Origin: Branchiostoma floridae
Taxonomy: Eukaryota; Chordata; Leptocardii; Amphioxiformes; Branchiostomatidae
NCBI RefSeq assembly: GCF_000003815.2
Contig: NC_049981.1
Coordinates: 9,455,673-9,519,672 of the forward strand
DNA length: 64,000 nucleotides
Direction: 5' to 3'
The first letter of the stretch is position 1; each line of letters opens with the position of its first letter. The translations under genes and the position numbers were made by a program. Of the stretch, positions 7,201 to 60,450 are shown piece by piece. The notes beneath the pieces were generated by a model, which worked only from the letters and a program-made list of their open reading frames with translations, was not told where the DNA came from and did no database searches.

Positions 7201-10200
7201 CACACACACACAGACATTACTGAAAACATAACCTTCTGGCAAAGGTAAATGTATATTTTTCTCCCTCCCCCCTCCCCTTAGGGGATAGGATAAGGAATTC
7301 CACAGTACAGTATGTACATGTACTTTACATGTGCACACTAAAGTCTCCTTGTCGAAGGTTGTGGTTTAATTTCTCACACGAGACGGTTCCGTTAATTTGT
7401 GGTCAGCAAGGCACACCATCAATCTGTACCATCACGTATTTGGCGTCTGACATGGGAAGGTTCCATCTCTGTTAGGGTAGGGTAGGACACACCCTTTAAT
7501 GGCTGACTTGCCCTACACTGTATGATGTATGTATGTTATGTATGTATAAATGTATGTATGTATGTATAAATGTACAGCTCCAAGCAGATGTTGGTTGAGG
7601 TTAATATGTTTTCCTAGCAAACCTTCTCCTGTGATTGTGATAGGCCCTTTCTGACCAAAAAGATGGCGGTTAAAAAGCGTATTGAATTTAAATTCCAGCA
7701 ACATCTGATTGGAGATAACATCTTTTTCTGTAAAATGAAGAATTTTGTAGGTGAGTGTTTTAAACCATAGTTGACGTATTTGCGAGGCGATCAATAAGTT
7801 ATCAGCCTAACCCAGAAATTGGGTGCTCCATTTTCGGGGCACAAATATTAGTGTAATGAAACCTTTTGTTTCACACCAAATTTCATGTCATTGCAGTCAT
7901 TACTTTGTGGACCTTCGTTTGGAAATCAGTAGGCAAGTGGTGAGAAAAACAAGAATGAACTGTGTCATGTCATAATATCTATGAAACACTGTTTGTCAAA
8001 TAGAGAAATACAAATAGTCCCTACCTACTGACCCTAATTTTTTCAGGGCCACAATCAGAAGCACAATCAGCATTTTTTCCTTGGCCTTACCAACATCACC
8101 TGCTGTATTCTAATATAGATTTGACCATTAATGACAGATTTCCACGCTCATTTTCCTAAGGACGGTAAGCCTCATCGAGGTTGAGTGCTGTTTGATCCTG
8201 TGACTTTTTGAATAGTTCCCCAGGGTGTTATATGGCCTGTGGGTTAATGCTGAGATGTGCATTATATGTACAGTACTCATGTAGGGTGTGGTACATGTAC
8301 AAATGTATGCAGAGGACTCAGAGAGCTTTAATGCTGAAAACAGATTTATTCCAGCAAGCCTATACGACAATGCTAAGTAATTTGTACCACATTGCAGCAA
8401 ATCTTGCACCACGGTAGGATGCTTTACAGTATAGAGTAATGCCTAGATAAGTGGTGAACCTTAATGAATACCATATAATGCAATAGACTGTAACTGGACA
8501 GTTGTTCAGTACCAAGGACTGAACTACTGTAAATGCATTTCAGTTTGTGGGGATTTAACTTCACATTGGAGAGAAAATGAAGTGTTTGCAGTGGTTCTGA
8601 GTTTGCAGAAGTGATATAATAGTCACAATACAGTGAGGGAAACTCCAGACAGCCAGTTGGAAGCCAGCTTCTAGTGACTTTACAAGGATGCTACAGGCAG
8701 ACACAATAGTAAATGGATACAACAAGCAACAGAGAGCTTAACACTAGTGGACAGTGAAAGTGTTTTCAGTACCAGGGACAGGGAAAGTGTTTTCAGTACC
8801 AGGGACAGGGAAAGTGTTTTCAGAACTAAAGACAGGGAAAGTGATTTCAGTGCTAGGGACAGGGAAAGTGTTTTCAGTACCAGGGACAGGGAAAGTGTTT
8901 TCAGCACCAGGGACAGGGAAAGTGTTTTAGCACCAGGGACAGGGAAAGTGTTTTAGCACCAGGGACAGGGAAAGTGTTTTCAGAACTAAAGACAGGGAAA
9001 GTGATTTCAGTACTAGGGACAGGGAAAGTGTTTTCAGTACCAGGGACAGGGAAAGTGCTTTCATCACCAGGGACAGGGAAAGTGTTTTCAGCACCAGGGA
9101 CAGGGAAAGTGTTTTAGCACCAGGGACAGGGAAAGTGTTTTCAGCACCAGGGACAGGGAAAGTGTTTTCAGTACCAATGACAGGGAAAGTGTTTTAGCAC
9201 CAGGGACAGGGAAAGTGTTTTCAGCACCAGGGACAGGGAAAGTGTTTTCAGCACCAGGGACAGGGAAAGTGTTTTAGCACCAGGGACAGGGAAAGTGTTT
9301 AGCACCAGGGACAGGGAAAGTGTTTTCAGCACCAGGGACAGTAGTCAATCCCGCGTCACTATAGCTTTCTGTTCAGGTTGAGATATGGCTGGTAATATGG
9401 GCCCTAGGCCGAGGCCTGAACAGGAGCAAAGTGGTACGCGCGGATGTCATCTGCCGACTTAAGGATCCGCATTCTCGGTTTTGTTTTGTGTTTTCCTTTT
9501 CACCTAAGCTTAAAGCGTGGCTAACTACCGTTAACCAATTGCATCTTTCCCGCTCCCATTCAAATGCTAAGCGCTGTCGGCGATTCATGATTCACTCCTA
9601 GAGTGCAGCTGATCACCTCACTACCACATATTATATATACAACACACATCTTGCTATTCAGGTTTCTACACAGAGAGCTTCATACCAAGTACCCGCTATG
9701 CGAAGGTCGGACTATCGGCCAATAAACACAACGTATACCACGTCCAGTTGTATTGGCTATAGCATGCTATTCACAGACACTGCAACGGAGCAATCTATTG
9801 AGACTGTTTCTATACCTATCCACAGTATCCATATCCATTAGCCATTGTTGGCTGTCCAGAAATTATCAGCCCTACTAAGTCTACTGTTGACTGGATTTAC
9901 CTAACGCCGGGCTTTCCTCTTCTTTTTTTTTTTTCTTTTTTTTTTTTCCAACTTCCTCCAATTGTAGCCCTAACCCCTTATATCGCACTATGGCTCACCT
10001 TTCCTATCCCTGCCCCGTGCCCCAGAATGACATGTGGGGGGTGTTATCTCTCAACCCATCCCACAATGCTATAGTGGACTCGGGATAGTAGTCAATCCCG
10101 CGTCACTATAGCTTTCTGTTCAGGTTGAGATATGGCTGGTAATACGGGCCTCCACCCTACAACCCTATCTATCGCTTCCAAACCTCATTCTTTATTCCCC

Positions 10201-13200: not shown

Positions 13201-16200
13201 TCCTGTTTACGAACGGCGTTTGCTGTAGATCAACTTTTTGATCACCCATCTAGTCAGACCCTCGCTCTCAGAAAGAAGAAACTACCCAAAATGTTTCCGG
13301 TCCATCACCTCTGCCCGTCAAAAGCACTTGTCATGTATTATTCACGGTCCACGCCCGGAAATCTCTGCCCGCCTATATTTCACTCCAAGTTCATGGTAAC
13401 ACTTGCACGGCCAAACATTCTGGATAAGTCACAGATTGTCACTTTCAGTGTGCTGTGTTCAGTCTCTGCTCACCCTTTACACAACCGTTCAGCTGTTCTT
13501 TGTTTTTTTCCCACCTGCGGGGACTCTGCCCGGCCCAGGTACCACATACATTGAACTCACATATCTCTCCACCTGCGGGAACTCTGCCCGGCCTAGGTGT
13601 CACATTCATTGACGTCACACATATTTCTTTATTACGATATTCGTAGTCTCCTTAATGTCTGGCTGTTCTGTTTCTTATTATGTGTCCCTTTGTTCTGTCC
13701 TGGACCTCTTAGTCATAACCAGATGTGTTTGACAGGCTAATCAATCATGTTGCACAATTCCCAGTTTGTTGACTTAGCGTGTCTTAAGAATTCAGATGGT
13801 CTGTGTATTTGTCAACACATGGGATAAATATGCTCTACATCCGCAAATCAAAAACGTGTAATGTTACATAACCATGCATTCATGGACGCCCACCTCACTC
13901 TGACCGAACTCAGAAGTCGGAACGGATCAGCGAGAGGGAGGGAGAGGTTAGGGGTAGGAAGACATGAACTGACTTTAACAATAGTGTGTTGTTAGTTCTT
14001 GTTACCACGTTCGCACAGTACCTGGTTATGATCAAAAGGACCTGGTCAACTTAAACACAGTTCCGTTCATGTTGGCGGGGAAGCCACAACTGAGACCCAA
14101 TCAAGAAAGCCAGATTTTTCCCGTTGGTGTCGGCAGGCAAGCCACAACGTCTGCCCGATACAGAATTTGAAGACGGACTTTGTGTCGGTGAGGATCAGGG
14201 AAACTACAAGTTCAACTTCTACCCGATAAACGAGCTTGAGAGACAAACTCTTCCATTCGCGTCTGCGGGGGAGCTACAAACTTCCACCTGATAAAGTTGA
14301 GACAAACAGTCATTCCATTTGTAGCCAACACGCACCTTCAATATGACAGGTCATCAGCTTGCGGCGGGGGGACAAAACTTCCCTCCCGTCTCAAGCTTAC
14401 GTAAAAACTCATGCAGTACACATACAGATGCGCGGCCTGTAGCCAACACGCACCTTCAATATGACAGGTCATCAGCTTGCGGGGGGACAAAACTTCCCTC
14501 CCGTCTCAAGCTTACGTAAAAACTCATGCAGTACACATACAGATGCGCGGCCTGTAGCCAACACGCACCTGCAATATGACAGGTCATCAGCTTGCGGGGG
14601 GACAAAACTTCCCTCCCGTCTCAAGCTTACGTAAAAACTCATGCAGTACACATACAGATGCGCGGCCTTTAGCCAACACGCATCTTCAAATGTGACAGGT
14701 CATCAGCTTGCGGGGGGACAAAACTTCCCTCCCGTCTCAAGCTTACGTAAAAACTCATGCAGTACACATACAGATGCGCGGCCTGTAGCCAACACGCATC
14801 TTCAAATGTGACAGGTCATCAGCTTGCGGGGGGACAAAACTTCCCTCCCGTCTCAAGCTTACGTAAAAACTCATGCAGTACACATACAGATGCGCGGCCT
14901 GTAGCCAACACACACCTTCAATATGACAGGTCATCAGCTTGCGGGGGGACAAAACTTCCCTCCCGTCTCAAGCTTACGTAAAAACTCATGCAGTACACAT
15001 ACAGATGCGCGGCCTGTAGCCAACACGCACCTTCAATATGACAGGTCATCAGCTTGCGGGGGGACAAAACTTCCCTCCCGTCTCAAGCTTACGTAAAAAC
15101 TCATGCAGTACACATACAGATGCGCGGCCTGTAGCCAACACGCACCTTCAATATGACAGGTCATCAGCTTGCGGGGGGGCAAAACTTCCCTCCCGTCTCA
15201 AGCTCCGGTGTATCCATGCATCATCGAAAAAGTGCCACCTCTGGGTATGCCACGTATTCAAACTTACCTGCGGGTACACAGTTTAGTTTCACTCGTCTCC
15301 GCCTCAAAGTATAAACATGACCGTCAGTCGAGGAATTGACCGACTCAGAATAAAGACACCTACAGGTAAAACAGTTTCCGGCGATCAATCAGTCTTCTTT
15401 ATTTTTAACTTTCCCATACATCATTTCCCATCTGAGCGCAAATCATGGAAATATAAACCGACCCCACACTAGCACAAATGAGTCCCCCCTAGCATAGCAA
15501 CAGTGATGGGAACCCAGTGGAGCAACAATGCACTCTTTAACGTGAACCAGATGTTTCCACATTCTGGCCCATGCCTCATGGCTAAAAATTATAGTAGAAT
15601 ATTTGCACCCGATTACCACACAAAACAACAAACACAAATCTGAGAAATCTATGTTAACTATTAATACTGTTTGGGGCACTCAGGCCATGGAACAACAGGC
15701 GAAAGCTGGACACAATACTGATGGGACAGTTGCAACAGTTATGATCTCCCATCCCAAAAAAGGCTGACCAAAACATTGATATTGTGGAGACTTACGCCTT
15801 GCACATGCAATCCACTACATGTGATCAGGGATCAGCCGGAAATGGTAAGTTATCTTACCTGGCAAAACCCAAATGGAATGTCTCATCAAAGTCCAACTTC
15901 TTGGTCCTAAGATACCCGAAGGATGTATGGAGAAAAGGTGGCCACCGGTGTCCTCCTGTTGACCCCAAAACAGTGGTGAACAAAAACACTGCAAAATTCT
16001 CCAAAGGTGCACAACGTCGTTCCTCTCATAGCAACATGCATCCTTGTTTCTCTACCCTTCTACTTACACCATTAAACTAAAGTTTTCCGCGCGTAAAACT
16101 TTCCAAAAGGAAAGAGCAGTCATGGTGTTACTGTTCTGGTCCAAGGCGTGCCCCAGAATGACATGTGGGGGGTGTTATCTCTCAACCCATCCCACAATGC

Positions 16201-19200
16201 TATAGTGGACTCGGGATAGGGAAAGTGTTTTCAGCACCAGGGACAGGGAAAGTGTTTTCAGTACCAATGACAGGGAAAGTGTTTTCAGCACCAGGGACAG
16301 GGAAAGTGTTTTCAGAACTAAAGACACGGAAAGTGTTTTCTGTACTAGGGACAGGGAAAGTGTTTGTAGAGTTCTTCTTTAACAAGCATACAAAAGTAAA
16401 AAGCTACATGTATTCATGGCAAATGGAACAGGCACTGCTGAATTGATGTACATAGGACAGCCCTAATGCCTATAAAATGACTCTCCTGGGTCCTGTTGAA
16501 CCCTACAGGAGTGGAAACAGACAGATACGGGCACGTAATCTCACGTAACCACGCCAAACGGAGGCTACGCTTTATGACACGGCATCCTCGATAAAAGATA
16601 TCTATCTGCACAAGGGGAAATTGCAGAATTGTCAGTGCTAGTCTTAAAATCAATTGAGCAGGGCTGTTATCAGGGTGGTCTCCAAGACCCGTCCCTCCGT
16701 CCTGGGAAGGAATTGTTGGTTTAGATGAACAATGATTTTCACCACGCCCAGAAAATATGAACTTCATGCCTTGAAGCTGATAACATTGTATTTTTGTAAG
16801 CTTGAGATGGCCGATTTACAACAGCGAAAATTAACGAGGGCTTCCGAACAACGAGTGGGGCAGAAAAAATCCAAGCTTGATATAGGCCAGGCTGTAATAT
16901 TCATTTATTTATTTATGCTGTAATAGTGTTCAAAATTTACATTTTGTTTTTTTTGTGTGTTTCGATTTTAAAAGCCTTGCATCTTACACTGCAGGGAAAA
17001 ATTTGCCAATTAAGATAATTTTGTTTACAGTAAATATCAATAAAAACACTTCTAAAAAGATTAAGATTTGATCCTACTGAATTCTGAGGAATGCGCTTCC
17101 CTCCCCAGAGTGCTGTTATATTTTATAACTCTGATCCCTTTTCGATCATTATAGCAGCATGATATGGCTTTATGTTATTTACTAAGCACCAACAGCAGGT
17201 GTTCACACCATGATATGTCTGATCGTTTGCAGGTTTTATATGCAGAAAGGCAGAATTTGGCATTATGATACATGGTAATCCACAGGAGCTGATGCAGCTG
17301 AAATGCATCCTAATAAACTATTGATAAACAACTGTAACGCGGGAGCATTCTTGAACATTTTTATTCTGGCAAGAAAGGTTATGATTTTGATTCCTGGCCA
17401 GACATAAGTGATCATAGAAAATTGACTATCCTCACCACACCCAGGTCTAAAAATGGGTACTAAACTATTGATAAACAACTGTAACATGGGACCATTATTG
17501 AGCATTTTTATTATAAAGTAATGCATTTACAAATGTATGTTCTTAGGAAAGGCACCTTACAAAATTAATACAATTGACTTTGCTCACTCCACCCAGGTGT
17601 AAAAATGGGTACTAAACTATTGATAAACAAACTGTAACATAGCACCAGTACTGAGCATTTTTATTATAAAGTAATGCATTTGTGTTCTCAGGAAAGTCAC
17701 TTGCCCGATGGGCACTTTTACTTGCCGGGACAATCTGACTAGTGGACTTGTCCAACCCCACCGGAACAAATAGATGTTTTTGTCCAGATTTCTAAGAGAT
17801 GATGTTTTTCCCACCACAGTATTCCCTCCAGAACGACATCGCATGGCGGCGGGTCTAAGTTTCACAACTTTCCCCGTGAAGCATGCCCCTGGACCCCCCT
17901 AGGATTGTTGTGCCTTCAAAAGGATTTCCATTCAAAATCCCGGGGAGGTATAAAGTTTGTAGACTGGCTGAACTAAAGCACTGTTTCTAAGAGATGTTTT
18001 TCCTCACAGTACTCCCTTCAGAACGACATGGCGCGGCGGCAGCTGGAGTACGAAGCTAAGAAGATCCGTGAGGAGATGGAGGAGCGACTGGGTGGTGTGG
18101 AGGAGATGCAGGCCCGCGGGGAGGCCAAGGTGCAGCGGGTACGCATGATCGAGGCTGAGATGCTGCGGATACAGCAAACACTCGCACAGGAGGACAGTAC
18201 TAAGGTGTGTATGACTGTTACTGTTTACCAAGGTGCAGAAGGTACGCATGATCGAGGCTGAGATGCTGCGGATACAGCAAACACTCGCACAGGAGGACAG
18301 TACTAAGGTGTGTATATAACTGTTACTGTTTACCAAGGTGCAGCGGGTACGCATGATCGAGGCTGAGATGCTGCGGATACAGCAAACACTCGCACAGGAG
18401 GACAGTACTAAGGTGTGTATGACTGTTACTGTTTACCAAGGTGCAGAAGGTACGCATGATCGAGGCTGAGATGCTGCGGATACAGCAAACACTCGCACAG
18501 GAGGACAGTACTAAGGTGTGTATATAACTGTTACTGTTTACCAAGGTGCAGCGGGTACGCATGATCGAGGCTGAGATGCTGCGGATACAGCAAACACTCG
18601 CACAGGAGGACAGTACTAAGGTGTGTATATAACTGTTACTGTTTACCAAGGTGCAGCGGGTACGCATGATCGAGGCTGAGATGCTGCGGATACAGCAAAC
18701 ACTCGCACAGGAGGACAGTACTAAGGTGTGTATATAACTGTTACTGTTTACCAAGGTGCAGCGGGTACGCATGATCGAGGCTGAGATGCTGCGGATACAG
18801 CAAACACTCGCACAGGAGGACAATGCAAAGGTATATATAATTATATAGCTAAGAATACAACATACTTTATCACCCGAGATGCTAGCCCAACTGCGGGTCG
18901 GTTCGCCCGAAGGCTGTAGGGCAATCCTACCTGCGGGGGGCTGGGACCGACACATTGCTTCAACTTGCGCTTACAACTTTATTCTTTAAGAACATCTATT
19001 CAAGAAAAATTTGAACAAAAGAACTCTGCTTGCAGTGGAGTGTGTTCTATTTAACGGATGGAAGCCTGTGTGATAAAACTAAAAAGCCCGAGTGTGTACT
19101 ACTGAAAATTATCACCCTGTCCGGAATACCTGTATCAAACGTTATCGCGGCCCAGGTATGACATCAAACTGTTTACCAAGTTTTGTTGAACTATTTTCAT

Positions 19201-22200
19201 TTTCTATTGCTTCTATACCTGTGTTGCCAGATTATCCAATGCTAGCACAAAATATATGGACTACGTAGCTGTATTGTGCTTTACGGAATTATGTTTAACA
19301 TTTTCCTTGCTGCCTAACTATGTAACCATTTGGTGAATTGGTAGCCAAGTTATTGAATTTGTGTGCTGTTTTCAAGGTTAGACAAAATCATACATGTATC
19401 ATACCTTGCAGTATTCCTTTGAATCGCTAGTTGGTGCATGCGTCCACAGCAAAAATTTGCAAAGAAAACAAGCATCACTTAAGCTATCACTTAAGCTATC
19501 TGCATACTTAAAATCATGACTATCTGTCAACCCTTTATTGAGTTTAATTTTTCAAAGTCTGAAACTAAACCGACTCCTGTCTATGATTCATCCTTGCTTG
19601 TTGCTACATGCAGGCACAAGTGGAGAGAAGAGATACTGGGTTATGTGAGGTGAACGGGCACAGAGAGGCAGATGGGAAGGATGTGAAGACTGCTGATGCG
19701 GCCACCAACACTTCCCTGTCACAGGTTAGTACTCAGGCACTATCGTCTGGAATTTCATGTGCCCAGTGATGAAAATCGTGAAATATTTGTGGCCAAATGG
19801 AAATTTCTTTTGTGATGCCAAGAAGTCTGGCACAGTGTACAATTCTAAATTGAATTATTTGTAATCTCCCCCCTTGACACAGGTGGTAGTGCCGAAGGCC
19901 CACACCAGAGACAGTGGTTTCTGTAGTGATCCAGAGAACATCTGGGTCGTACCATCCAAAACCAAGGGGGACGGCACACAGATGGTCACCAGGGCGACCC
20001 AAACGGCTGAGGTCTACATCCACGACGGGCCGCCGCCTTCCCAGCATTCCCTAGAAAGGCTATCCCAGAGTGTCTTGCAGCAGTCTTCCCAGTATGCAAT
20101 GCAGCTTCCGCTCCAGCAGGTGTTGCAGTCCCCACACAGTCCACTGATGGGGAATCCAAATTCTCCACACTCACTGCCAGCCAATCGGGTGGAGATGTAC
20201 TCAGCTCTGTACAGAGGAGGATGGCCATTGGACAAGTTGACAAAGGTATAAAAAAGTACTAGATTGGAAATGAAAAAATGTATCTTCTTTCTAACAACTT
20301 ATGCAGTTAACAGATTTTTTTTAGATTTGCATGCAACCAAGTGGCAGCATGTGAGGCAGAATATGGTGTAACTGGAGACTTGCAGGATTGAAAGGCTGAT
20401 ATGGCCTGGGTCCAAAGTTGTTGCCACAGGCTTGGTAGCCTGTGGGAAAACAGGAAAATATATCGTCAGAATTAGTGAAAAATTCACAAAAATGAATAAA
20501 ACTCTGCATATTTCATGGAGGAGATATTTGATTTCTTGTTCACAAAATATGATATTTGTTTTACCTACAGCCGGGTACCCCCAGTGAAACAGCCAGTGTT
20601 ATGAGCTTCAACAGTAATTCTTCCTTTGGACCCAGAAGACTGGCTCCTCAACAACTCGGCACCAAGGTACTCAAAATTTACATGTACATCCAGATGCACT
20701 GTCGATGTACATGTTTGATATGACAGACATGCTATCTTACATGCAGTACTGCAGTATTTAAGCTAATGGTATATGAGTCATGTAAAGCAGTCACTTGAAT
20801 AAAAGAGATTGAATTTGTTCAAATGGAAGAAGTGTATGCTGCATCCAATATTGGATGAACATTACTCTTTACAGTACGCAACGGAAGCATCCATTTCAAA
20901 TGCTTTTTGTCATGTAGCTTTCACTGTAGATTTATTTTAAGTCACACCGAAAACTAAAAACTGAGAAATACCTCAATTTTTTTTTAATATACAGTATTTC
21001 TCCCAGAAGAAAGGGTCATCATCTTTTTGCTGGAAATGAAATGAAATGTTTTTGTGTGAAATGTATTCAAATGGGATAAAATGTGCGGTCTAACTGGGTA
21101 AGCCCACTGGACAGAGCCGCATGAAAGTGTGAAGACTAGCAGACTGCTGCCTCCTGTGTTAGGGATCCCAGCTGCAATGCTTGAAAGTAGATGGAATGGC
21201 AGTAAATCGTTTCCTCCTGCTGTTCCTATGTCCAGGTTGAGATGGTGTACAGCCTGCTGTCCATGCTGGGCACACACGACAAGGACGACATGAGCCGGAC
21301 ACTGCTGGCCATGTCCAGCTCTCAGGACAGCTGTATAGCCATGCGACAGTCAGGTAATCATCATCATCATCATCACGTGTTCTACCTCCACAACAGGGAT
21401 GTCTCCAGCTTTAAACTTGTTCGTCCCACTGTTTGTTTCGAAGCCCGAGTTGTTTACTTTCTTTTTTGAATCTGTCATTTAGAGCTTACAAAAATATGCC
21501 ATATTTTGTACAGACGAGGGGAAAGTTTTGTCAATCCTGAGAATGTCCTGGCAGGAAGGGACAGGTTATGGAGACATCCCTGCTCCTTAATAACAACTAA
21601 CACTTACATTTTGTGTAAAGTAGAGCCCCTGTCACATATTCAGGACCTGCCCACTACTTTGCTACTAACCAAGGACGATGCAGGGTTGGGAATAGCCTGG
21701 AATTTATCCTATTCTAGCTGCATTTCACTCCTCCTTTCATATCTAAGCAGATTATGACATCTTTGCTTTTTCAAAATACATCCTTGGCTGGTGCCTTAGC
21801 AGTTACTAGTTAGGCAGTAAAAGACATCAGAGGGGCCCTGCGCGGAATAATTTCAATGAGTTAGGCAGTTATATGAGTTAGGCAAATTAGAAACTTTGTG
21901 AATCCAATAAAATCTGTTTCAAAATGTTGCAATTCCTACACAGAAACATCTCTCGATAGCAAAGGTTTGCTTCTTTGTTGCATGTTGTAGTGAATTTTTT
22001 TAACACCTTGAAAAGTACTGAGTGCTTTTGGGGACAACTCAGGAAAATGTTTAATCAAAAAGAGAGTTGCAGTAATGCTAGAATGTTAACCCTTTTGCAC
22101 CATTTTGCCAATTGCGAATTTTTAAAGATCTTTTTTGAAACTCCACAATTTTAGGTGATAAGTCAAAGTAAGATATCCACATTGTAGTAAAGGATTAGTA

Positions 22201-30800: not shown

Positions 30801-33800
30801 GCTTGGTCAGAATGTACCACAGAAAAAGATCTAATGCAACAGTACCACGGTATTTTCAGAAATGAGACAGGTAAATTTGTACATGTAGGACACATGCAGG
30901 ACTACCCCAAGATTGCCCTCAGTTTGTGATTGCATGACCTGGCCTTTAGTGAAACAGTGAAAGTTGTAGCAGCTTGAGCAGACCACAAACCTACAGACTC
31001 CTGTTTGTTTTTGAGTCTCGTAAACCATTTTGCCGGAGGGGTAATCACCTTTGGTGACTCCTCGTGTCTCCGCTGTGGCAAAGTTGACATTTTAGACACC
31101 ACTAAGCTGATAATGGGGACTTAATGATGCGTTTTATTGCTAAGATATGGCAAAGGTCTTCAGAAAACACCTGGTATATATAGTAGTGAAAGATCCTATT
31201 GTACCAGCATACAGCGACACAAAAACAACATTAGAAAAGGCATTTACTGTAAAACAGGAAATTTTATGTTTGCATTTTTGGCCATGACCTCTTAAACAAC
31301 TTTTGTGTATGCTTTTACTTAGCCAAAATGGCATGTTTTACTTAGCCAAAATTGCAGTAACCACAACCTACAGAACACATCCCATCCAAAAAAACTGCAA
31401 ATCTCCAGTTAGGTGTTCATGTATTGTTGATACTTAAACTTTAAGTGATGCAAACATATTTCCATACATCAAAATCAACCCTTAAACTGCAGGTCCCAAT
31501 TTTTTTTCGGATACTGGTACATTTTCATTTGTACAACCTCTGTATGGGGGTTGCCACAATTTTTGGGATAGGGTTTGAATTTTACCATTTCCCTCTGTGT
31601 TGATTATCTCCATGCATATGGTTTGCTAACAACTCTTTGTCCTTTGTTTTCAGGTGGTCTGCACGCGGTGGCGGAGCTGTTACAAGTCGACCACGAGATC
31701 AATGGAGACACGTTGGACCAGTACAGCATCACCATCCGGCGCTACGCAGGCATGACCCTCACCAACCTCACCTTCGGAGACGGAGTCAACAAGGCAACAC
31801 TCTGCTCCATGAAGAGCTTCATGCGAGCTCTGGTTTCACAACTCAAGTCCAATAGTGAAGAACTCCGGCAGGTCACTGCGAGCGTCCTACGCAATTTGTC
31901 GTGGAGAGCCGATCCGGGGAGCAAGAAGACCCTCCGAGAGATCGGCAGTGTGGTAATGTTGACGCGAGCAGCAATGGAAGTGAAGAAAGAGGCAACGTTG
32001 AAGAGCATTTTAAGTGCTTTGTGGAACTTGTCGGCACATTGCACAGAGAACAAAGCAGACATCTGTGCCGTGCAAACTGCACTTGCCTTCCTTGTTAGTA
32101 CACTGTCATACAAAAGCCAGTCAAACAGTTTGGCCATCATCGAAAATGGCGGAGGAATTCTCAGAAATGTGTCAAGCCATATTGCAACACGCGAGGACTA
32201 CAGACAGGTCCTTAGAGACCACAACTGTCTTCAGATTTTGTTAGACCAGCTTCGCTCTCACAGCTTGACTATTGTTAGCAATGCATGCGGCACGCTGTGG
32301 AACTTGTCCGCTCGCTGTGCAAAGGATCAGGAGACGCTATGGGAGCAAGGAGCAGTGAGCATGCTGAAAAATCTCATCAACTCGAAACACAAGATGATCG
32401 CTATGGGGAGCCAGGCTGCGCTAAGAAACCTCATGCAAGCACGCCCTGCGGTGTATCGCAACTTGCAAGATTCCTCGAGCAAAACAAACTCGCCCGGTTT
32501 GCACGTTCGCAAAATGAAAGCCCTGGAGGCCGAAATTGACCCAACGTTGACGGAAACATGCGAAAACGTGGACAACTTGAGTCCCAAAGGTAGCCCAAGG
32601 AGGGGTAGCAATGAGGCAGTGTCCTCACCCCTCACAAAACGAGGAACTCTGAGGGATTTCTCCCCCACGTACGGAGATGGGCCAGCCCGGTTGTCCTTAA
32701 GGCGAAACATGCAGAGATTCGACAGCCACGAAAGTCTGTGCAGTAACGGTAGCAACACTTTTCCCCGCAATTGGCGGTCACAGTCGGAAGAGCGGGACTT
32801 CATCCGTAGTCGAGAGAGACACAGCTCCGGCACAAGTCGGTCTAGAGACTCTTCCCCACAGTACAGCTCGCACTCCCTTGAAAGAACGAGAGATGGCACG
32901 AAACCCAAATCTCGCACAGCCATACAGATCGCAAAGGTGGTCGAGGAAGTATCGGGCCACTCAATATCAAGCGGTACAGAAGAGTCGCATGATGGCTCGC
33001 AGAATGAAACAACCTGTCCTCGGTCAAACTCTGCCACGTTCGACCACCGATCACATATCCCCATCGCCTCTGGTGCAACCAGATCCCAGTCCTTCAGTCA
33101 AGAGAGAAAAGAATACTTGAAAATGCAAAGACGCCCGTCCAACGATAGCCTGAATAGTATAAACAGTGACATTTACCCAATGAGTCCAAACCTGAAGTAC
33201 CCTTACCCTAAAGCCTCCATGGACCACTCGTACTCAGAAGAAAGTGCCCTAAACTCTGAAAAAGGGGGGAAGATGAGCAAGTATCCTGCAGAGCTGAGGA
33301 GAAAGATTGAAATTCAGGTGGAGAATTTTAACAAGATGGACAATACAGACATGGATACACCCATCAACTTTAGTCTGAAGTATTCGGATGAGGCGTTAAC
33401 ACCAGGGCGGCGGAGTCCTACCGTAGAGGAAATGTGCAGAAGGGAGGAAGAGGGAGGGCGGGAGGAACAAATAGGAGCTGTGGGTATGGAGAATGGGAAT
33501 CACGGAAGCTTCGTAGATGCTCACGCCACAGTGAGTATACGCAGTGATATCCCCAACAAGTACCGCCTGACCTACAGCCAATCAGATCTAGGGGGCGATG
33601 ACGAACCTACCAACTTCTCTCTACGCTACACTGAGCACACTGACGGAGACCACAATGACCACGACAGTGGTGGTGAGTACTGTACAAAGTGTAAACCTCC
33701 CCAAAACACAGGGAGAGAAAGACAGACTGAAGCTCCAACTGGTGCAAGTATTGGGTACAGGGAAGGAAGCCCCAAGTTCCCGAACAGTGTAAGAAATATG

Positions 33801-36800
33801 TACCAAGGGCAGGGAGCAACAGAAGGCGAGAAGTCATCGAGTGTGGCGGGAAAGTTTGCCAGTCCACGGATGCAGAGACATCACCAGTCCCAACTGAATA
33901 GTCAGGTTCCCATGTCGACGTGTCCAAACCACTCTTCACAAGGGAGCAGGCCACAGCCACTGTTTGTCAGTAGAAACAACTTCTCCCTACCCAAGGATAC
34001 CAACGTACAGGCTGGAAGTAATATGTCACCCAGAGGAGCCAGGGACAGCCCTCGTAGCAGCAATGCTATCCACCCTCCCACAGCTGCCTTCCAGCAAGGT
34101 GGTGATCAGATGCGAAATTCTTCCCAGGTAAAACCCAACCCACCGGCAGCAGCTAGCCCCCTGCCGTCGCAGTGGAAAGTTCATAATCTCCATGATGACC
34201 CGCAAACGTTTGCCGAGGAGGGCACCCCTCTCTGCTTCTCAAGGGTCAGCTCACTCAGCTCTCTGCACAGCGAAGAAGCTGACGACACAAAATGTGAGGA
34301 AGAAATGAGCCCTGAGAAGGAAGAACCTCAGGAACACTTCCAAGAAGATGAGGATGAAAGTTCTGCCACGGGGAGGACCGAACTGTCCAACCACTCTGAA
34401 CCAGAGGTTGAGCCGGAAGATGAGAGTCCGACATATCACGAAGAAGGCCAGGACGAAGAACTCCAGACTCCTGAAGAATATAAGGATGCACAAACCCCTC
34501 CTGAACCCAAAAGCACAGAACCTGGCAGTCCAAACCCCATCGGTTGTGAGGAGACTCCTCTAGTGTTCAGTCGATCCAGCTCTCTTAGCTCCCTCAGTAG
34601 CTGCGAGATGAAGTCCATCTCTAGTTCTGTTGCCAGTGAGTTCCCGAGCCATCGAGCCAGTGAAGTTGTCAGTCCCAGTGACCTGCCGGACAGCCCCAGC
34701 CAATCCATGCCACAAAGCCCTCGGCACAAGAAAAAGCTGCTTACAGAGTTGGGGATTCGACGAAGCACACCACAAGGACGGCATTCGTCCCAACCCAGCT
34801 CTAGACATCAGGCGAAGGGAAGTCCTTCCCATTCAGTAGCTCATGCCTCACAGGCTTGTGAAGATGCACCGATATCCTTCGTAACTGAAGGAACCCCACT
34901 GAACTTCTCCTGTTCTACAAGTTTAAGCTCTCTAACAATGGATGAGCCACATATCACCAAGGATGTCGATATGAGAAGAACAAGACGCCAACTCGAGCCT
35001 GTCAAAGACGAAGAAGAGGTTGAGGATGAGGAAAAAGAGAGGAAGGGACAAAGGGAAAGAAACAAAGATGAAGAGAATGCACATCGTGAAAGTTTTGTTG
35101 CATCCGAAGCTGACGAAAAGTTGCTGGACGAAATCATCAGCGCTGCCATGCCCAAGAACAGTGCTTCAGGGAGAGATAAGAGAATCCTGGCAAACGCCAA
35201 GAAGCTTTTGAACAACCAGGCTGCAGGGAAGTCGTCAGGCAGGGACACGCCGAAGTCTCACACGTCCTCGAGATACGGCGGGCAGGAAGACACGGTGAGG
35301 AGGTACAACACTGAGGACACTCCACTCAATCGCTCCAATGCGACATCTCTGAGCGACCTGAGTCTGATGTCAGGGATGGAGTCAGGCGCTCGCGGCGAGG
35401 CCCAGGGAGAGTCCGAAGAACACGAGCAGATGAGTCCAGAAGATCTGATGAAGTCAGAGTCCAGCTCAATGCTCGATGGTCAAGCCGAGGAGCTTCTAGC
35501 AGAGTGCATCAACTCTGCCATGCCCACTAAGAGCAGCCGCCCGCCTCGGCGCAGACAGATCCCTCAGCCTAGCTCCGGCCCTCAGAAGAAGAGCTCCATG
35601 CTGCCGGTAAGGTCCAAGCCTACAGCCAAGGTTCCTGCTGGTCAGAACAACCAGCTGCGTGGTGCTGCAGGCATGGCGTCCCCCAAGGCAAGGCTTCAAC
35701 CCCATACAAACAGGCTTAATGCTGCACAGCCCTTCACAAATAACACGAGTGCTGCTTCAACCAGACAGTTTTCAAATGAAGACTCCGTTAGGTGCTACAA
35801 GGAAGAGGGCACTCCGTTAAACTTCTCCACAGCCACCTCGCTCAGTGATTTAACCATAGATTCCCCGGACGGAGTGTCAGAGAGAGGGGGTGCCAGCAAC
35901 AAAATCAACAGCCAGCCAATGCAGACAAGTAACAGCACCCCTTCAACGACAGCTATTCCTCATCCCCACCATCCACGGCAGATGCCCAACAGAGGACAGA
36001 TGTCCAAAGGAAGTTCGCCATATGACACCCCTCACACCTATAACGTAGAAGGCACTCCGCTTTGCTTCTCAAGAAACGACTCCTTGAGTTCACTGAGCTG
36101 TGACGAAGATGTTAGCTTTCAAAAAGAGCGGCAAGAAATGAAACAGGAGTTGAACAATTCCAGGGATGGAGGTGCTGTTGGGGAGAGAGGTGCAACACCA
36201 AACAACATGCAAGAGGGCGCCTCGTCACAGAAGCAAAGTCTGAAGAATGCAGCTAGACAGAACAAGACAGGCCAAACATCCTCAGGAATTCCACACAACC
36301 TCAAACTTGTGGGACAGAACAAAGCCATGCAGAACAGAATGGTTGAAGGCCAGAACAGAGCTCAGGTTCAGAGAAACGCACCGGAACAGGCATCCTGTCA
36401 AAACAACAACTCAGCAGAAGCTAACAACAACGCAGCGCAACCGCAGAGTGCGTGGAAGAAGCACGGGAACGCCGTGGGTGATGCCTACACGAGTAACTTT
36501 CCCCGGCTGGAGAAGAACAAAGATACAAACTTGCGCAAACCATCAGAAGAGGTTCCAGTGAAGTATTACGTTGAAGACACACCTGTATGCTTCTCTCGAA
36601 ATTCTTCCCTCAGCTCTCTGGACAGTGACATGGAGGACGAGAATCATGATAGGCCAGGAAATCAGGAAGCTGATCATGTGACTGCTGGCCAACCACAGGA
36701 AGGAGCCACCGCTGAAGAAGGTGCTCGCACCTTCCAAGTTGAGGACACACCTATTTGCTTCTCAAGAAATAGCTCCTTGAGCTCCTTAAGTATTGACTCA

Positions 36801-39395
36801 GAAGGAGAAGAAGCTTTACTTAAGGAGTGCATTAGCTCAGGTCAACCCAAACACAGTCAGATTACCAGAGCGAAAAGGAGAACAGACTCATCTCAAATGC
36901 CAGCTGCTTCGCAAGAACCAACAACTTCTCACCAGGGAAAGAGAGGGAAAGTTTCCAGTAAAAGTTCAAAACCGAACGCGTACGGAACACAAGAGAAAGG
37001 AATCCCAAATGGTTCTTCTTCTCCGAGTCCCTCTCCCACAGACTCCAACACCCTCCCACCAGCATCACCTCTAACCGTAGAAAACCTTCGCCTTCTGAAT
37101 GGAACTGCTGAATGCCCAGAAGTCCCCGCGGACATCCCCTCCGACTCGTCGAACCGCTCCCTTCCAAGTGACTCGGAGATGAAACACCCGGCACGACCCA
37201 GGATAGTCAAACCCACTGACAAAGACTCGATGGAGGCAAAACGAAGAGAAGAGTCCGCAAAGTCCGTCAAGGGAAAGAAAAAGGTGTACAAAAGCCCTAT
37301 GTCCCGAATGAAGACTGATAGCCCTAGAGCAAAGGAAAAGTCTTTTGTGATATCCAGAGAAAGCCCTGCTACACCGAGAGAGAAATCGTTCGTGATCTCA
37401 AAGGAAAAATCATTTGTCATCTCATCTGGTAAGCCATCAGGCAGTACTCCTTCTAAAACACCAGCGAGGCCAAGTACGAATGTTAGTCCACCAGGAAGAA
37501 CAACTCAAAAGAACGTGGTTTCAAGAAGTCCTAGGGAACAGGGATCAAGGTCAGCAAGGTTGTCCTCTCCGAAAACAAGTCCTCGGGCAGGTGTGACATC
37601 GCGAACACCGCCCAAGTCTTCTCAACCACCAAAAATTCAAACTCCACAGCAGAGGAGGATGGAAGCAGGGAGGGGGAAGGAGATGGCAGGCAAACGTGGG
37701 GAAAGTCCTCGCGGCCGCACTGCTGCACAGAGTAAGGTCCCAACAGGTGTACGGTCACCAGCAAAAATGTCGCCACTCAAACAACTCGGCAGGAAAGGGT
37801 CAGCAGAAGAGGACAGGCCCGCCCTTGTGAAACAATCCACCTTCGTCAAAGATGCCCCCACACCTTCATTACAGAAACAGATGGAACAGGCTGCAAAAAA
37901 CGATGCAGGCCAGCTGAAGAAGGAGGCAGCTGGTAACAAGAAGGCCCCGAAGAAGGCTCCTTCTAGTGAGTCTTTAAGAGAGATGAGGGGAAAACCCGCA
38001 CAAAGAGCAACCCCACAAAAGACTCAGTCGATAGACTCACTAGTTAAGAGCACACGCTCTGGGTCACCGCACCTACGTGGACCTCCCAAAATGCCTTCTG
38101 CTGACTCGATCAGAGGAACCAAATCCACCCCCAAAAAGTCTTTCTCTCGGGCGGAATCTACAGAGTCCTTGAAAAGTAATTCATCAGCAGCGTCCAAATC
38201 TAGCAGGTCTAGTGGTAAAAAGGGGCCGTTTTCCAAAGTTGGAGGAGCAACAAAAGAACCAGCTCCATGGAAACGATCGCTTAACAACTTTATGTCGCAT
38301 GGCGAGGAGAAATCAGTTACAAGTGCGAAACAAGCCTTAGAGAATCGCGAAAAACAAGACAGCGTGAAACCAAAAATGACAAGAAGCGGCACCCTAGTGT
38401 TGTCAAAAGGGCCAGAAGAGTCAAAACCAACAACAAGGGGGAACTCTTGGAGGAAGATTCCATCTGCAATAGGGGTTGACATCAAGCCTGAGAATACAGA
38501 ACAACTAAGCCTTAAAACATCCAGTACATTTAGTATTAGCCCAAACAGTGCGCATGTGAAGGGGCCACTAGAAGAGCAAGTACAACAACAAGTCAACGAG
38601 CCTGATAGTGACAGTGGCGACAGCCCAGATGAAGAAGAGGACCATCTCGCCGTGCTAGAAGCAGAGTTAGAAACAGAAGTTAACGAAGAGGCAGAGGTTT
38701 CGATCGAAAATGAAACCTTCGTAGAGCTGGACAGTCCAACGCGGTCCACAGCAAGCAGCGAGTTCACCATCTCAATAGAAGAGAAGACTGTGACAAGGAA
38801 TATACAAGTGTCTGGGAGAGCGAGTAAGACTGGAAGCGGGGCTGATACACCCGATGACATTGAAGACATCTGGGTCAGAAGGGATGAAGGGTTTGAGAAC
38901 ATTGTACAGCAAGAGGCGCTACTGTTAGCGCAGGAACTTGAACAGATGGCACTAGAACGGTTAGACCAAGAGAGGGAAGAAGAAGTAAAGGCACAGGACG
39001 AGAACATAAAAGGAATTGAGAGAGAGGATACAGAGAGAGGTAGTCCTGGGGAGGGAAGGAATCAGTCGGGCGGCATGGGTTTCAGGAAGACTCCAAACTC
39101 CTCGCCAGCGGATTCTGACCGACCAGAGGGGTTACCGTTTGGGCGATCGAGAACGCCGCCCCTCAACAGTAGTAAGAACTCGTCACCATCTTCAGGCAAC
39201 TCGGCTACCGCCCTGGTGTCGCCGTTCAACTACAGCCCGCCCAAACATGACAGGGAGGCGGCTGGTAGAACGTCCAGGATCCCCATGGCAACGGTAGCTA
39301 GGGGCAGCCCCACCCAGCAACGGCAGAGGAAGGGTCCAGGAGAGTCAGGATCAGAAGGGAGCGAAAAGGCAACTTACCTTGTCACATCCGTCTGA
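4180..39395 (+). CDS. APC: APC (adenomatous polyposis coli) homologue, 5' partial, eleven exons in window
   Basis: Scaffold of the cytoplasmic beta-catenin destruction complex in Wnt signalling; it also binds microtubules through EB1. Exons chain in phase: 4180-4288, 18010-18204, 19614-19724, 19883-20245, 20571-20666, 21236-21353, 22372-22467 (probable cassette), 23257-23411, 29990-30071, 30562-30663, 31654-39395, giving about 3055 residues in the window. In order I see: N-terminal coiled coil (EYEAKKIREEMEER); VEMVYSLLSMLGTHDKDD, nearly identical to human; armadillo repeats to about 32460; 15-aa beta-catenin repeats (TPINFSLKYSDEAL, 33355; EPTNFSLRY, 33603); eight 20-aa repeats (TP-x-x-FSR-x-SSLSSL type) from 34208 to 36800; the inhibitory motif SPSDLPDSPSQSMP (34672); SAMP (Axin-binding) motifs at 35122 and 35494; a basic Ser/Pro-rich tail; SRIP (EB1 SxIP-type) at 39274; and C-terminal YLVTSV (PDZ ligand). 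The first exons lie upstream of the window. The identification is very secure. Confidence 0.97.
4957..5265. repeat. Minisatellite, about five 60-bp units
   Basis: Units share catcaggaactgtccc, tgtagttaacaat and gactttggttgtt. Spacing is about 60 bp and divergence rises toward the right. Confidence 0.85.
5708..5715 (+). promoter_or_regulatory. TATA box of a candidate internal promoter
   Basis: TATATAAG lies 43 bases before an ATG (5751) and just downstream of a locally CpG-rich stretch (about 5510-5660) that also carries a TGAGTCA (AP-1-like) site near 5645. It lies inside a 13.7 kb APC intron. This is a reading from base pattern only. Confidence 0.5.
5751..5780 (+). CDS. Candidate alternative first exon, 10 codons, in phase with APC exon at 18010
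   Basis: ATG opens MSTDKIMRIK and is followed by a consensus donor (AAG|gtacgt). It ends in phase 0 and the next APC exon (18010) begins in phase 0, so splicing would give an APC lacking the earliest coiled coil. The TATA box upstream supports a transcription start. It might belong to another transcript. Confidence 0.4.
7510..7575. repeat. (TGTA)n microsatellite
   Basis: Repeated TGTATGTATG runs interrupted by TAAA. Confidence 0.8.
8747..9340. repeat. 27-bp minisatellite with RE1-like core (left part)
   Basis: About 22 units of 26-27 bp: core TTCAGCACCAGGGACAGG plus spacer gaaagtgtt. Variants include TTCAGTACC, TTTAGCACC and TTCAGAACTAAAG. The array breaks at 9340 and resumes at 16219. Confidence 0.95.
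9341..10087. mobile_element. TIR element 1 (747 bp) of a tandem pair
   Basis: It starts GTAGTCAATCCCGCGTCACT and ends CTATAGTGGACTCGGGATA; the ends form an imperfect inverted repeat (ATCCCG-GTC-ACTATAGC). Its first about 65 bp and last about 70 bp match those of the adjacent larger element. A poly-T/CT tract is at about 9920-9948. No transposase. Confidence 0.75.
10088..16218. mobile_element. TIR element 2 (6.1 kb), head-to-tail with element 1
   Basis: It has the same ends as element 1 and abuts it without a gap. It is more CpG-rich than the surrounding intron. It contains a 115-bp tandem array at 14310-15204. No transposase-like reading frame is seen, so it is non-autonomous or decayed. Confidence 0.7.
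14310..15204. repeat. Eight-copy 115-bp tandem array
   Basis: Units share gacaggtcatcagcttgcgg, acttccctcccgtctcaagc and agatgcgcggcctgtagcc, spaced about 115-118 bp, nearly identical. It lies inside TIR element 2. Confidence 0.93.
16219..16366. repeat. 27-bp minisatellite with RE1-like core (right part)
   Basis: About five to six further units directly after the transposon end, completing the array interrupted at 9340. Confidence 0.93.
17308..17690. repeat. Three-copy about 150-bp tandem repeat
   Basis: taaactattgataaacaa recurs at about 17309, 17462 and 17613, followed by gagcatttttatt. Confidence 0.8.
17820..17858 (+). pseudogene. Degenerate duplicate of the 5' end of APC exon 18010
   Basis: The stretch beginning ttctaagagatgatgtttttcc before an AG acceptor reads YSLQNDIAWRRV then TAA. 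It closely copies the start of the real exon 190 bp downstream (YSLQNDMARRQ...), including the preceding intron. The stop codon and changed residues make it a dead copy. Confidence 0.7.
18010..18204 (+). CDS. APC: APC exon (YSLQNDMARRQLEYEAKK...)
   Basis: Acceptor ctcacag, 65 codons, phase 0 at both ends, donor AAG|gtgtgt. It matches human FSLQTDMTRRQLEYEARQ. The last 75 nt are the first of seven tandem copies, so the true 3' boundary could lie at any of several identical donors. Confidence 0.92.
18130..18830 (+). repeat. Seven tandem copies of the 3' 75 nt of an APC exon with 28/30-nt spacers
   Basis: Copies begin at 18130 (inside the exon), 18233, 18338, 18441, 18546, 18651 and 18756; each is 75 nt, 25 codons (VQRVRMIEAEMLRIQQTLAQ...). 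The spacers are 28, 30, 28, 30, 30 and 30 nt; every one begins gtgtgt and ends tttaccaag. Copies 2 and 4 read QKVR and the others QRVR. Copy 7 ends EDNAK|gtatat rather than EDSTK|gtgtgt and so may carry the ancestral exon end. Confidence 0.92.
19614..19724 (+). CDS. APC: APC exon, divergent linker
   Basis: Acceptor acatgcag, 37 codons in phase 0 (AQVERRDTGLCEV...), donor CAG|gttagt. It is hydrophilic with little similarity to human, as expected for the linker between coiled coil and armadillo domain. It is supported by splice sites and phase. Confidence 0.75.
19883..20245 (+). CDS. APC: APC exon, Gln/Ser/Pro-rich linker
   Basis: Acceptor ttgacacag, 121 codons in phase 0, donor AAG|gtataa. 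It holds a Gln/Ser-rich, low-complexity stretch (SQSVLQQSSQYAMQ...). It falls in the linker that is poorly conserved in APC proteins. Confidence 0.8.
20571..20666 (+). CDS. APC: APC exon (PSETASVMSF...RRLAPQQLGTK)
   Basis: Acceptor cctacag, 32 codons in phase 0, donor AAG|gtactc. It aligns with human HETASVLS...PRRLTSHLGTK, which also ends at an exon boundary before VEMVYSLLS. Confidence 0.9.
21236..21353 (+). CDS. APC: APC exon (VEMVYSLLSMLGTHDKDD...)
   Basis: Acceptor tgtccag, donor TCAG|gtaatc, ends in phase 1. It is almost identical to human APC through CIAMRQS. Confidence 0.96.
22372..22467 (+). CDS. APC: APC 96-nt exon, probably alternatively spliced
   Basis: Acceptor gggcccag after a C/T-rich tract; donor CTGG|gtaggt. 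It enters and leaves in phase 1, so inclusion adds 32 residues (ELKCVNTQDYALKTILALSN...) and skipping keeps the frame from RQS-G to CLPLL. It sits where human APC carries its small alternative exon (called 9A/10A); homology to that exon is untested. Confidence 0.7.
22953..23101. mobile_element. MITE-like inverted repeat
   Basis: cagataggtgtcg-type left arm and gcatctgttagcagtgacac right arm are reverse complements around an AT-rich centre. A related piece occurs near 56285-56330. Confidence 0.65.
23257..23411 (+). CDS. APC: APC exon, start of armadillo region
   Basis: Acceptor cccctctcag, donor CAG|gtgggg. It encodes CLPLLIQLLHG...LGNSRGSKDARARA, close to human. It ends in phase 0. Confidence 0.95.
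23456..23705. mobile_element. hAT-type MITE with 8-bp target duplication
   Basis: Perfect 16-bp terminal repeats (CAGGGTTGTAGCCAGC) enclose 250 bp. Flanks CCCGGTAG (left) and CCTGGTAG (right) differ at one base. CAGGG ends with an 8-bp duplication are typical of the hAT superfamily. Confidence 0.8.
23969..24150. mobile_element. Two divergent tRNA-derived SINE heads
   Basis: On the minus strand near 23969-24030: GTGGCCTTGTGGTTAGGGTT with GAGTCCAAATCCC. On the plus strand near 24072-24150: GTGGCCTTGTTGTTAGG with GGTTCGAGTCCC, a canonical B box. Confidence 0.6.
24160..29100. other. APC intron interior without recognised exon
   Basis: About 4.9 kb of AT-rich sequence. SINE-like fragments lie near 24920-25060 and 25310. 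No gene is seen. Confidence 0.5.
24841..24879. repeat. (GT)n microsatellite
   Basis: An uninterrupted GT run of about 38 bp. Confidence 0.95.
29164..29325 (+). CDS. Candidate CpG-rich alternative APC exon
   Basis: An ATG opens 54 codons (MPGRVTGRSPLCVT...) ending TACCTAAAG|gtatcc in phase 0, compatible with the phase-0 exon at 29990. CpG density is much higher than in the surrounding intron. It could be a first exon, or an internal exon starting at 29140 after ...gcatcgaag, also phase 0. There is no recognisable homology. Confidence 0.3.
29465..29700 (+). mobile_element. tRNA-derived SINE
   Basis: cctaggttcaaatcttgtc resembles a B box. The body has gtccttgggaaaggtacttt and cactcgacccaggtgtaaaa, also found (diverged or inverted) near 4740, 24960 and 43690. 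Confidence 0.6.
29990..30071 (+). CDS. APC: APC exon (EARVLRLLEQIRAYCDA...)
   Basis: Acceptor cctgtccag, donor AAAG|gtaatg, phase 0 in and phase 1 out. It aligns with human REIRVLHLLEQIRAYCE. The preceding intron is 6.6 kb. Confidence 0.94.
30562..30663 (+). CDS. APC: APC exon (armadillo; ALMKLSFDEEHRQAM)
   Basis: Acceptor atcccatag, donor CTAG|gtaagg, phase 1 in and out. It aligns with human VLMKLSFDEEHRHAMNEL. Confidence 0.95.
31654..39395 (+). CDS. APC: APC terminal exon (armadillo repeats to stop)
   Basis: Acceptor ttgttttcag, 7742 nt, stop TGA at 39393-39395. The open frame runs upstream into the intron, but homology starts at GGLHAVAELLQVD, directly after the acceptor. Armadillo repeats run to about 32460. 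20-aa repeats start near 34208, 34545, 34878, 35304 (degenerate), 35797, 36040, 36565 and 36733. SAMP motifs are at 35122 (SAAMP) and 35494 (SAMP); a third site at 36813 reads SGQP. EKSFVIS occurs three times near 37335-37425. The C terminus is YLVTSV. In human the corresponding sequence is split by several introns before the long last exon, so introns look lost here. Confidence 0.97.
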
Positions 39396-60013: not shown

Positions 60014-60450
60014 CTATCCTTGGACTAAATGACACTTGGTTGAACATAGGTATGGTAGCTTGGTTGCGAAACAGGGAAGATGGTCCCATTTATCAGGAAA
60101 ATTTGAGTCCTGGGCGAGGTACAACACACAGTCCTTATCGTCGGCTTCATCATCAGGACGTCCGGGGGCCCAGTTGGTATAGTCGGTGTTCTTGTCCACA
60201 ATATCCGACTCATTTGACACCCAGTAAAACTTCTCACTGAGACCAAGGCGCTTGAGACCAAACCAGAAGTTGCTTTGGGGGTCAGCAGCATTTTTCAGAG
60301 AGATGAGGAACTTGTCGATGCTCTCTGTACGGGGTATGGCGAGGTCGCCACATTCTGACAAACACTTGATTTGAGCGACAATTTGGTTTTGCGGTGTGGT
60401 GAAGGCCTTGTAGCACATGTTCTCATGAAAGCTGTATCCATCACTGCAGG
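60014..60450 (-). CDS. C-type lectin exon 3 (lectin domain and stop)
   Basis: Acceptor gttttttccag on the minus strand, 145 codons, stop TAG at 60016-60014. The entire lectin fold lies in one exon. Confidence 0.93.

Follow-up and report, generated by a model that had tools for sequence, protein, structure and literature searches.

A stretch of 64,000 nucleotides of the Branchiostoma floridae genome (C3:9455673-9519672, forward strand; 'the window', to which positions refer unless a locus is named; genome searched, 513.4 Mb) carries in the APC tumour-suppressor gene a tandem array (18130-18830) at the donor border of a coding exon. The array is a new example of the 'mirages' of amphioxus, tandem repeats across exon-intron borders that are already described as a class (PMC3087553; PMC3902484), and we consider it probable that it arose through microhomology and is spliced out silently. 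The identity of the host gene, already proposed in the original prediction made from the letters of the window, was borne out by APC-family domain matches, the exon at 31647-39395 matching the profiles APC_r, Arm, Arm_APC_u3, SAMP and APC_15aa. A peptide from the coiled-coil exons matches Suppressor_APC, and since this match stops after the first 26 residues of the exon at 18010 it falls short of the repeated part. Human APC exons 6 and 7 comprise 38 and 28 codons, and on these lengths the amphioxus exon of 65 codons may correspond to the two human exons fused, which we offer as a lead only.

The array consists of seven 75-nt units, each of 25 codons and all in phase 0, separated by spacers of 28 or 30 nt (Table 1), which gives a repeat period of 103-105 bp. 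Every spacer reads GTGTGT...TTTACCAAG, i.e. GT...AG, and the exonic AGGT is duplicated as AAG^GTG at 18127-18132 and at each later unit start; both the anatomy and the AAG^GTG within the original exon are as first predicted. Tandem Repeats Finder returned a period of 105 with 6.7 copies, 97% matches and a score of 1326, and a period of 208 with a score of 1357, so that a chance origin is not a concern. Over their exonic 75 nt the copies share 96-100% identity with unit 1: units 1, 3, 5 and 6 show no difference at all, units 2 and 4 carry AAG in place of CGG and hence VQK instead of VQR, and unit 7, at the array edge, is the most divergent copy, with three changes near its end (EDNAK instead of EDSTK) followed by gtatat rather than gtgtgt. 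The order of units and spacers, R28-K30-R28-K30-R30-R30-R, suggests that a two-unit block of 208 nt may itself have been duplicated, and the 208-nt higher-order period points to past amplification of the array. No second copy of the array was reported elsewhere in this genome, the single match being the window locus.

Table 1. Positions of the repeated exon tail, its spacers and associated features in the window.
Feature	Position	Strand	Remark
Decayed 5'-border copy (intron end and first 31 nt of exon)	17789-17850	+	~190 nt upstream of real border
APC coding exon, 65 codons, ends with unit 1	18010-18204	+	only copy contiguous with upstream coding sequence
CCAAG in exon, putative junction microhomology	18125-18129	+	common to all spacer ends; part of AAG^GTG proto-splice site
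Unit 1, functional exon tail	18130-18204	+	donor 1 at 18205, AAG^GTGTGT
Spacer 1, 28 nt	18205-18232	+	
Unit 2, VQK variant	18233-18307	+	
Spacer 2, 30 nt	18308-18337	+	
Unit 3	18338-18412	+	
Spacer 3, 28 nt	18413-18440	+	
Unit 4, VQK variant	18441-18515	+	
Spacer 4, 30 nt	18516-18545	+	
Unit 5	18546-18620	+	
Spacer 5, 30 nt	18621-18650	+	
Unit 6	18651-18725	+	
Spacer 6, 30 nt	18726-18755	+	
Unit 7, edge copy, EDNAK end	18756-18830	+	gtatat at 18831, presumably the original intron start
ACTGTTTACCAAG in same intron, last 13 nt of each spacer	19168-19180	+	probable source of spacer 3' half
Next APC exon, 111 nt	19614-19724	+	in frame with donor 1

Tandem copies of this kind could in principle reflect an assembly artefact or the merging of two haplotypes, either in their number or as a whole array, and the mirage repeats of PGBD5 do differ in copy number between assemblies (2 versus 7 for the 60-bp repeat, 3 versus 6 for the 108-bp repeat; PMC3902484). 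The ordered unit variants and the 208-nt period, together with the decayed copy of the exon's 5' border (see below), nevertheless fit the turnover of a real array, and the class has been published and was found again in this genome, and we regard an artefact as very improbable.

Evidence on the origin of the spacers comes from the intron itself. Outside the array the 13-mer ACTGTTTACCAAG occurs at only one place in the window, and the match ends at the unit junction. When the bases of the 783-nt intron stretch were shuffled 20000 times, the 13-mer turned up complete in one shuffle, and by simple count a 13-nt match anchored at the junction would be expected there with a probability of ~1e-5. 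CCAAG, which stands in the exon directly before unit 1, also forms the last bases of every spacer, and its occurrence in both the exon and the intronic 13-mer points to a microhomology-mediated duplication. The spacer start, gtgtgtatata, resembles by eye only the intron start after unit 7, gtatatata. A dispersed element was rejected as the spacer source: a search with the last 16 nt of the spacer, at most one mismatch being allowed, gave 16 genomic sites, 6 within the array and 10 outside it, versus 30 for a reversed control.

We infer an order of events in which a duplication would first have been joined at a 5-nt microhomology, between the exonic CCAAG and another within the intron, ~350 nt from its start. 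The inner copies would then have lost most of the intron sequence between them, down to a spacer of 28-30 nt ending in AG, with the full intron kept after unit 7, and unequal exchange or slippage would subsequently have amplified one- and two-unit blocks. Two points weigh against this scheme: the intronic 13-mer is a short match, and six bases lying between the spacer halves could not be assigned.

In the transcript, donor 1 would be joined to the acceptor at 19613, so that units 2-7 are removed with a 1409-nt intron and the protein is unchanged. This junction gives an open APC reading in which no unit is repeated. In contrast, read-through to any of donors 2-7 with spacer 1 retained meets a stop in 6/6 readings, at codon 84 counted from 18010, as foreseen for unspliced read-through. 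The seven donors had also been thought equivalent, which they are not, because donors 2-7 require spacer 1 to be retained unless splicing takes place within the array; without use of an array acceptor, donor 1 is alone in preserving the frame. Silent removal is the most likely outcome, since the mirages of Adh3 and the globins are reported without interference with splicing, the authors taking Adh3 data and globin reverse-transcription PCR (RT-PCR) to suggest that regular splicing is undisturbed (PMC3087553).

Some properties of the array weigh against silent removal. After unit 1, all 64 of the 64 subsets of units 2-7 stay in frame. Scored against a 9-position splice consensus rather than with a trained model, donors 1-6 match at 8/9 positions, donor 7 at 7/9 and the exonic donor at 18130 at 6/9, and pyrimidines occupy 10/16 positions at the spacer ends versus 9/16 at the exon's own acceptor and 11/16 at the next. 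With open frames, donors 2-6 at 8/9 and pyrimidine-rich spacer ends, inclusion of units is conceivable. Splicing from one unit to its neighbour is unlikely, because even the ultra-short human introns screened in PMC4463651, at 37-65 nt, are longer than the 28/30-nt spacers. If donor 1 is spliced to the acceptor that precedes unit 3, 4, 5, 6 or 7, on the other hand, the introns measure 133, 236, 341, 446 or 551 nt, respectively, and at most three additional blocks, units 3, 5 and 7, could therefore be included without any micro-intron. The expectation that the array is skipped by default stands, and extra 25-residue blocks would in principle keep the frame as proposed, whilst the short spacers do not by themselves bar inclusion and introns of 28-30 nt are not needed for up to three blocks.

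The array might accordingly act as a set of cassette exons, with transcripts carrying one to three extra 25-residue blocks through ordinary introns, or more, and an N-terminal coiled coil of APC that varies in length by allele or tissue. In favour of this, a PGBD5 gene model had included two mirage repeats nearly whole as an exon, although the authors excluded it (PMC3902484). However, the globin and Adh3 mirages are published as not disturbing splicing, the spacer acceptors finish in AAG, and only 1/5 differing sites among the units falls at a third codon position, with no sign of coding constraint. We therefore think it improbable that the units serve as cassettes, and marginally less probable still that the array is polymorphic and in frame through introns of 133-551 nt, its minisatellite copy number tuning the length of the coiled coil.

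Silent splicing of a mirage would agree with reports on the class. Mirages are described in Adh3 and the globins BflGb6 and BflGb9 (PMC3087553), as well as in troponin C (TnC) and PGBD5 (PMC3902484), with unit lengths of 10-160 bp (PMC3087553). The APC unit of 103-105 bp falls within this range and spans an exon-intron border, as the class requires; the kinship with an amphioxus Adh minisatellite that had been suspected is supported by the published Adh3 mirage. With BflGb6, BflGb9 and Adh3 it shares tandem repeats spanning a border, on the donor or acceptor side, of high copy identity and with diverged edges; the greatest divergence of unit 7 favours assignment to the mirages, since the outermost BflGb6 copies are likewise said to differ most. 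Unlike in these three, the gene is APC, every copy of the 103-105 bp unit holds 25 whole codons flanked by AG and GT, and duplications occur at either end of a single exon. The PGBD5 repeats, variable in copy number between assemblies, are described as imperfect (PMC3902484), in contrast to the near-identical APC units. Among the papers listed in searches of one open-access library for this class, most of them judged by title and abstract opening, none named APC there.

The array also resembles the Rogers model of intron gain by AGGT tandem duplication, illustrated by ATP2A1, 24-bp repeats in fission yeast and potato RdRp (PMC4974935), in that an exonic AGGT was duplicated with intronic sequence across a border. 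A nascent intron of this type would run from the exonic donor at 18130 (AAG^GTGCAG) to the acceptor before unit 7, making unit 7 with donor 7 a separate exon. The resulting reading is open, with protein length unchanged and EDNAK for EDSTK, and the new border would lie 2 codons from the human exon 6/7 border. Splicing of such an intron is nevertheless disfavoured because the exonic donor is weak, matching fewer consensus positions than donor 1, as does donor 7, and we judge this reading highly unlikely. The earlier suggestion of AGGT intron creation was right about the exonic AAG^GTG but mixed it with the gtgtgt donors, whereas a pure Rogers intron starts at the exonic GT of 18130.

The other border of the same exon carries a decayed copy as well (Table 1), with a decoy acceptor AG ending at 17819. 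It aligns to the real border with 82% identity (E-value 7e-9) and a score of 68, whereas none of 200 shuffles scored above 21. Both ends of the exon have thus been duplicated and, judging by identity, 82% versus 96-100%, at different times. Among the eight APC exon intervals of the window compared, with limits set by eye and the last exon represented by its first 150 nt only, copies within 3 kb were found for the exon at 18010 only, and no border duplication was found at the other seven. The long intron upstream of this exon also holds a 115-bp tandem array (14320-15204; 7.7 copies, 97% matches).

In the same genome 69 loci (9 globin, 30 kinase and 30 chaperonin) were surveyed, and a duplication overlapping the coding match was found in four, L010, L014, L044 and L064; repeats that lay only within 80 nt of the match (L006, L013, L055 and L061) were left uncounted. 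Border-crossing copies thus accompany 4/92 exon matches examined, or 2/83 without the globins. Two of the nine globin loci are affected: L010 has a border-crossing duplication with a 157-bp shift and L014 has copies 154, 158 and 158 bp apart, and these match BflGb9 and BflGb6, respectively, by published unit lengths and border types, the comparison being one of lengths and borders. In L013 the globin intron start, from the donor on, repeats ~100-116 nt downstream (~1731-1947; 81% over 81 nt), the donor part being judged by eye and the case uncounted as border-crossing. The protein-kinase exon of L044 has two extra acceptor-border and two extra donor-border copies (1182-1550 and 1819-2398 in that locus); in the donor copies 5/5 distinct substitutions are synonymous, and one copy has a 1-nt gap. 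In L064 a Cpn60_TCP1 chaperonin exon tail and donor are duplicated once (1628-1664 and 1762-1798 in that locus; 97% over 37 nt). The available passages of the two mirage papers (PMC3087553; PMC3902484) do not name the L044 and L064 mirages. Kinase loci offer few borders, because 25/30 matches span at least 240 of the 263 profile positions in one piece. Among kinesin exons, at looser thresholds than in the 69-locus survey, duplication was seen in 0/23 examined of the 134 matches listed.

In L010, L014, L044 and L064 together, 27/36 sites at which a copy differs from its functional exon are third codon positions (binomial p 4e-7 versus 1/3 and 4e-4 versus 0.46, in a post hoc test on copies that are not independent). 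Each differing site was counted once, distinct sites being determined by hand and gap columns excluded, and for L064 the count is confined to the exonic part (25 nt) of its top local alignment, excluding differences further upstream. The decayed APC acceptor copy shows the same tendency (4/5, 17820-17850), in contrast to the APC array (1/5). Unequal exchange with other functional alleles may therefore be the source of mirage copies, which does not hold for the APC array.

Elsewhere in the window, minisatellites with 27- and 43-bp units (8749-9341, 16213-16365, 60528-61079 and 61990-62209) have a common core, TTCAGCACCAnGGACAG, which occurs 14 times in exact form in the window, always on the + strand. 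It is identical to the core of RE1, the vertebrate REST/NRSF site with the consensus TTCAGCACCACGGACAGCGCC. Genome-wide, exact copies numbered 7150 for TTCAGCACCANGGACAG and 9 for TTCAGCACCNNGGACAGCGCC, versus 0 for each reversed control, and among the first 100 places listed for TTCAGCACCANGGACAG some are solitary and some clustered with varying spacing. A limited literature search returned nothing on genome-wide abundance of the RE1 core in titles, abstract openings or passages. On the - strand an open frame at 60014-60478 resembles, by eye, a C-type lectin domain.

The small survey suggests that border-crossing structures are no great rarity in this genome. Mirages are an open and unusual laboratory for the multiplication of exon borders and, possibly, for the birth of introns, and the APC case combines duplication of both borders of one exon, a traceable junction and frame-safe units in a gene central to Wnt signalling.
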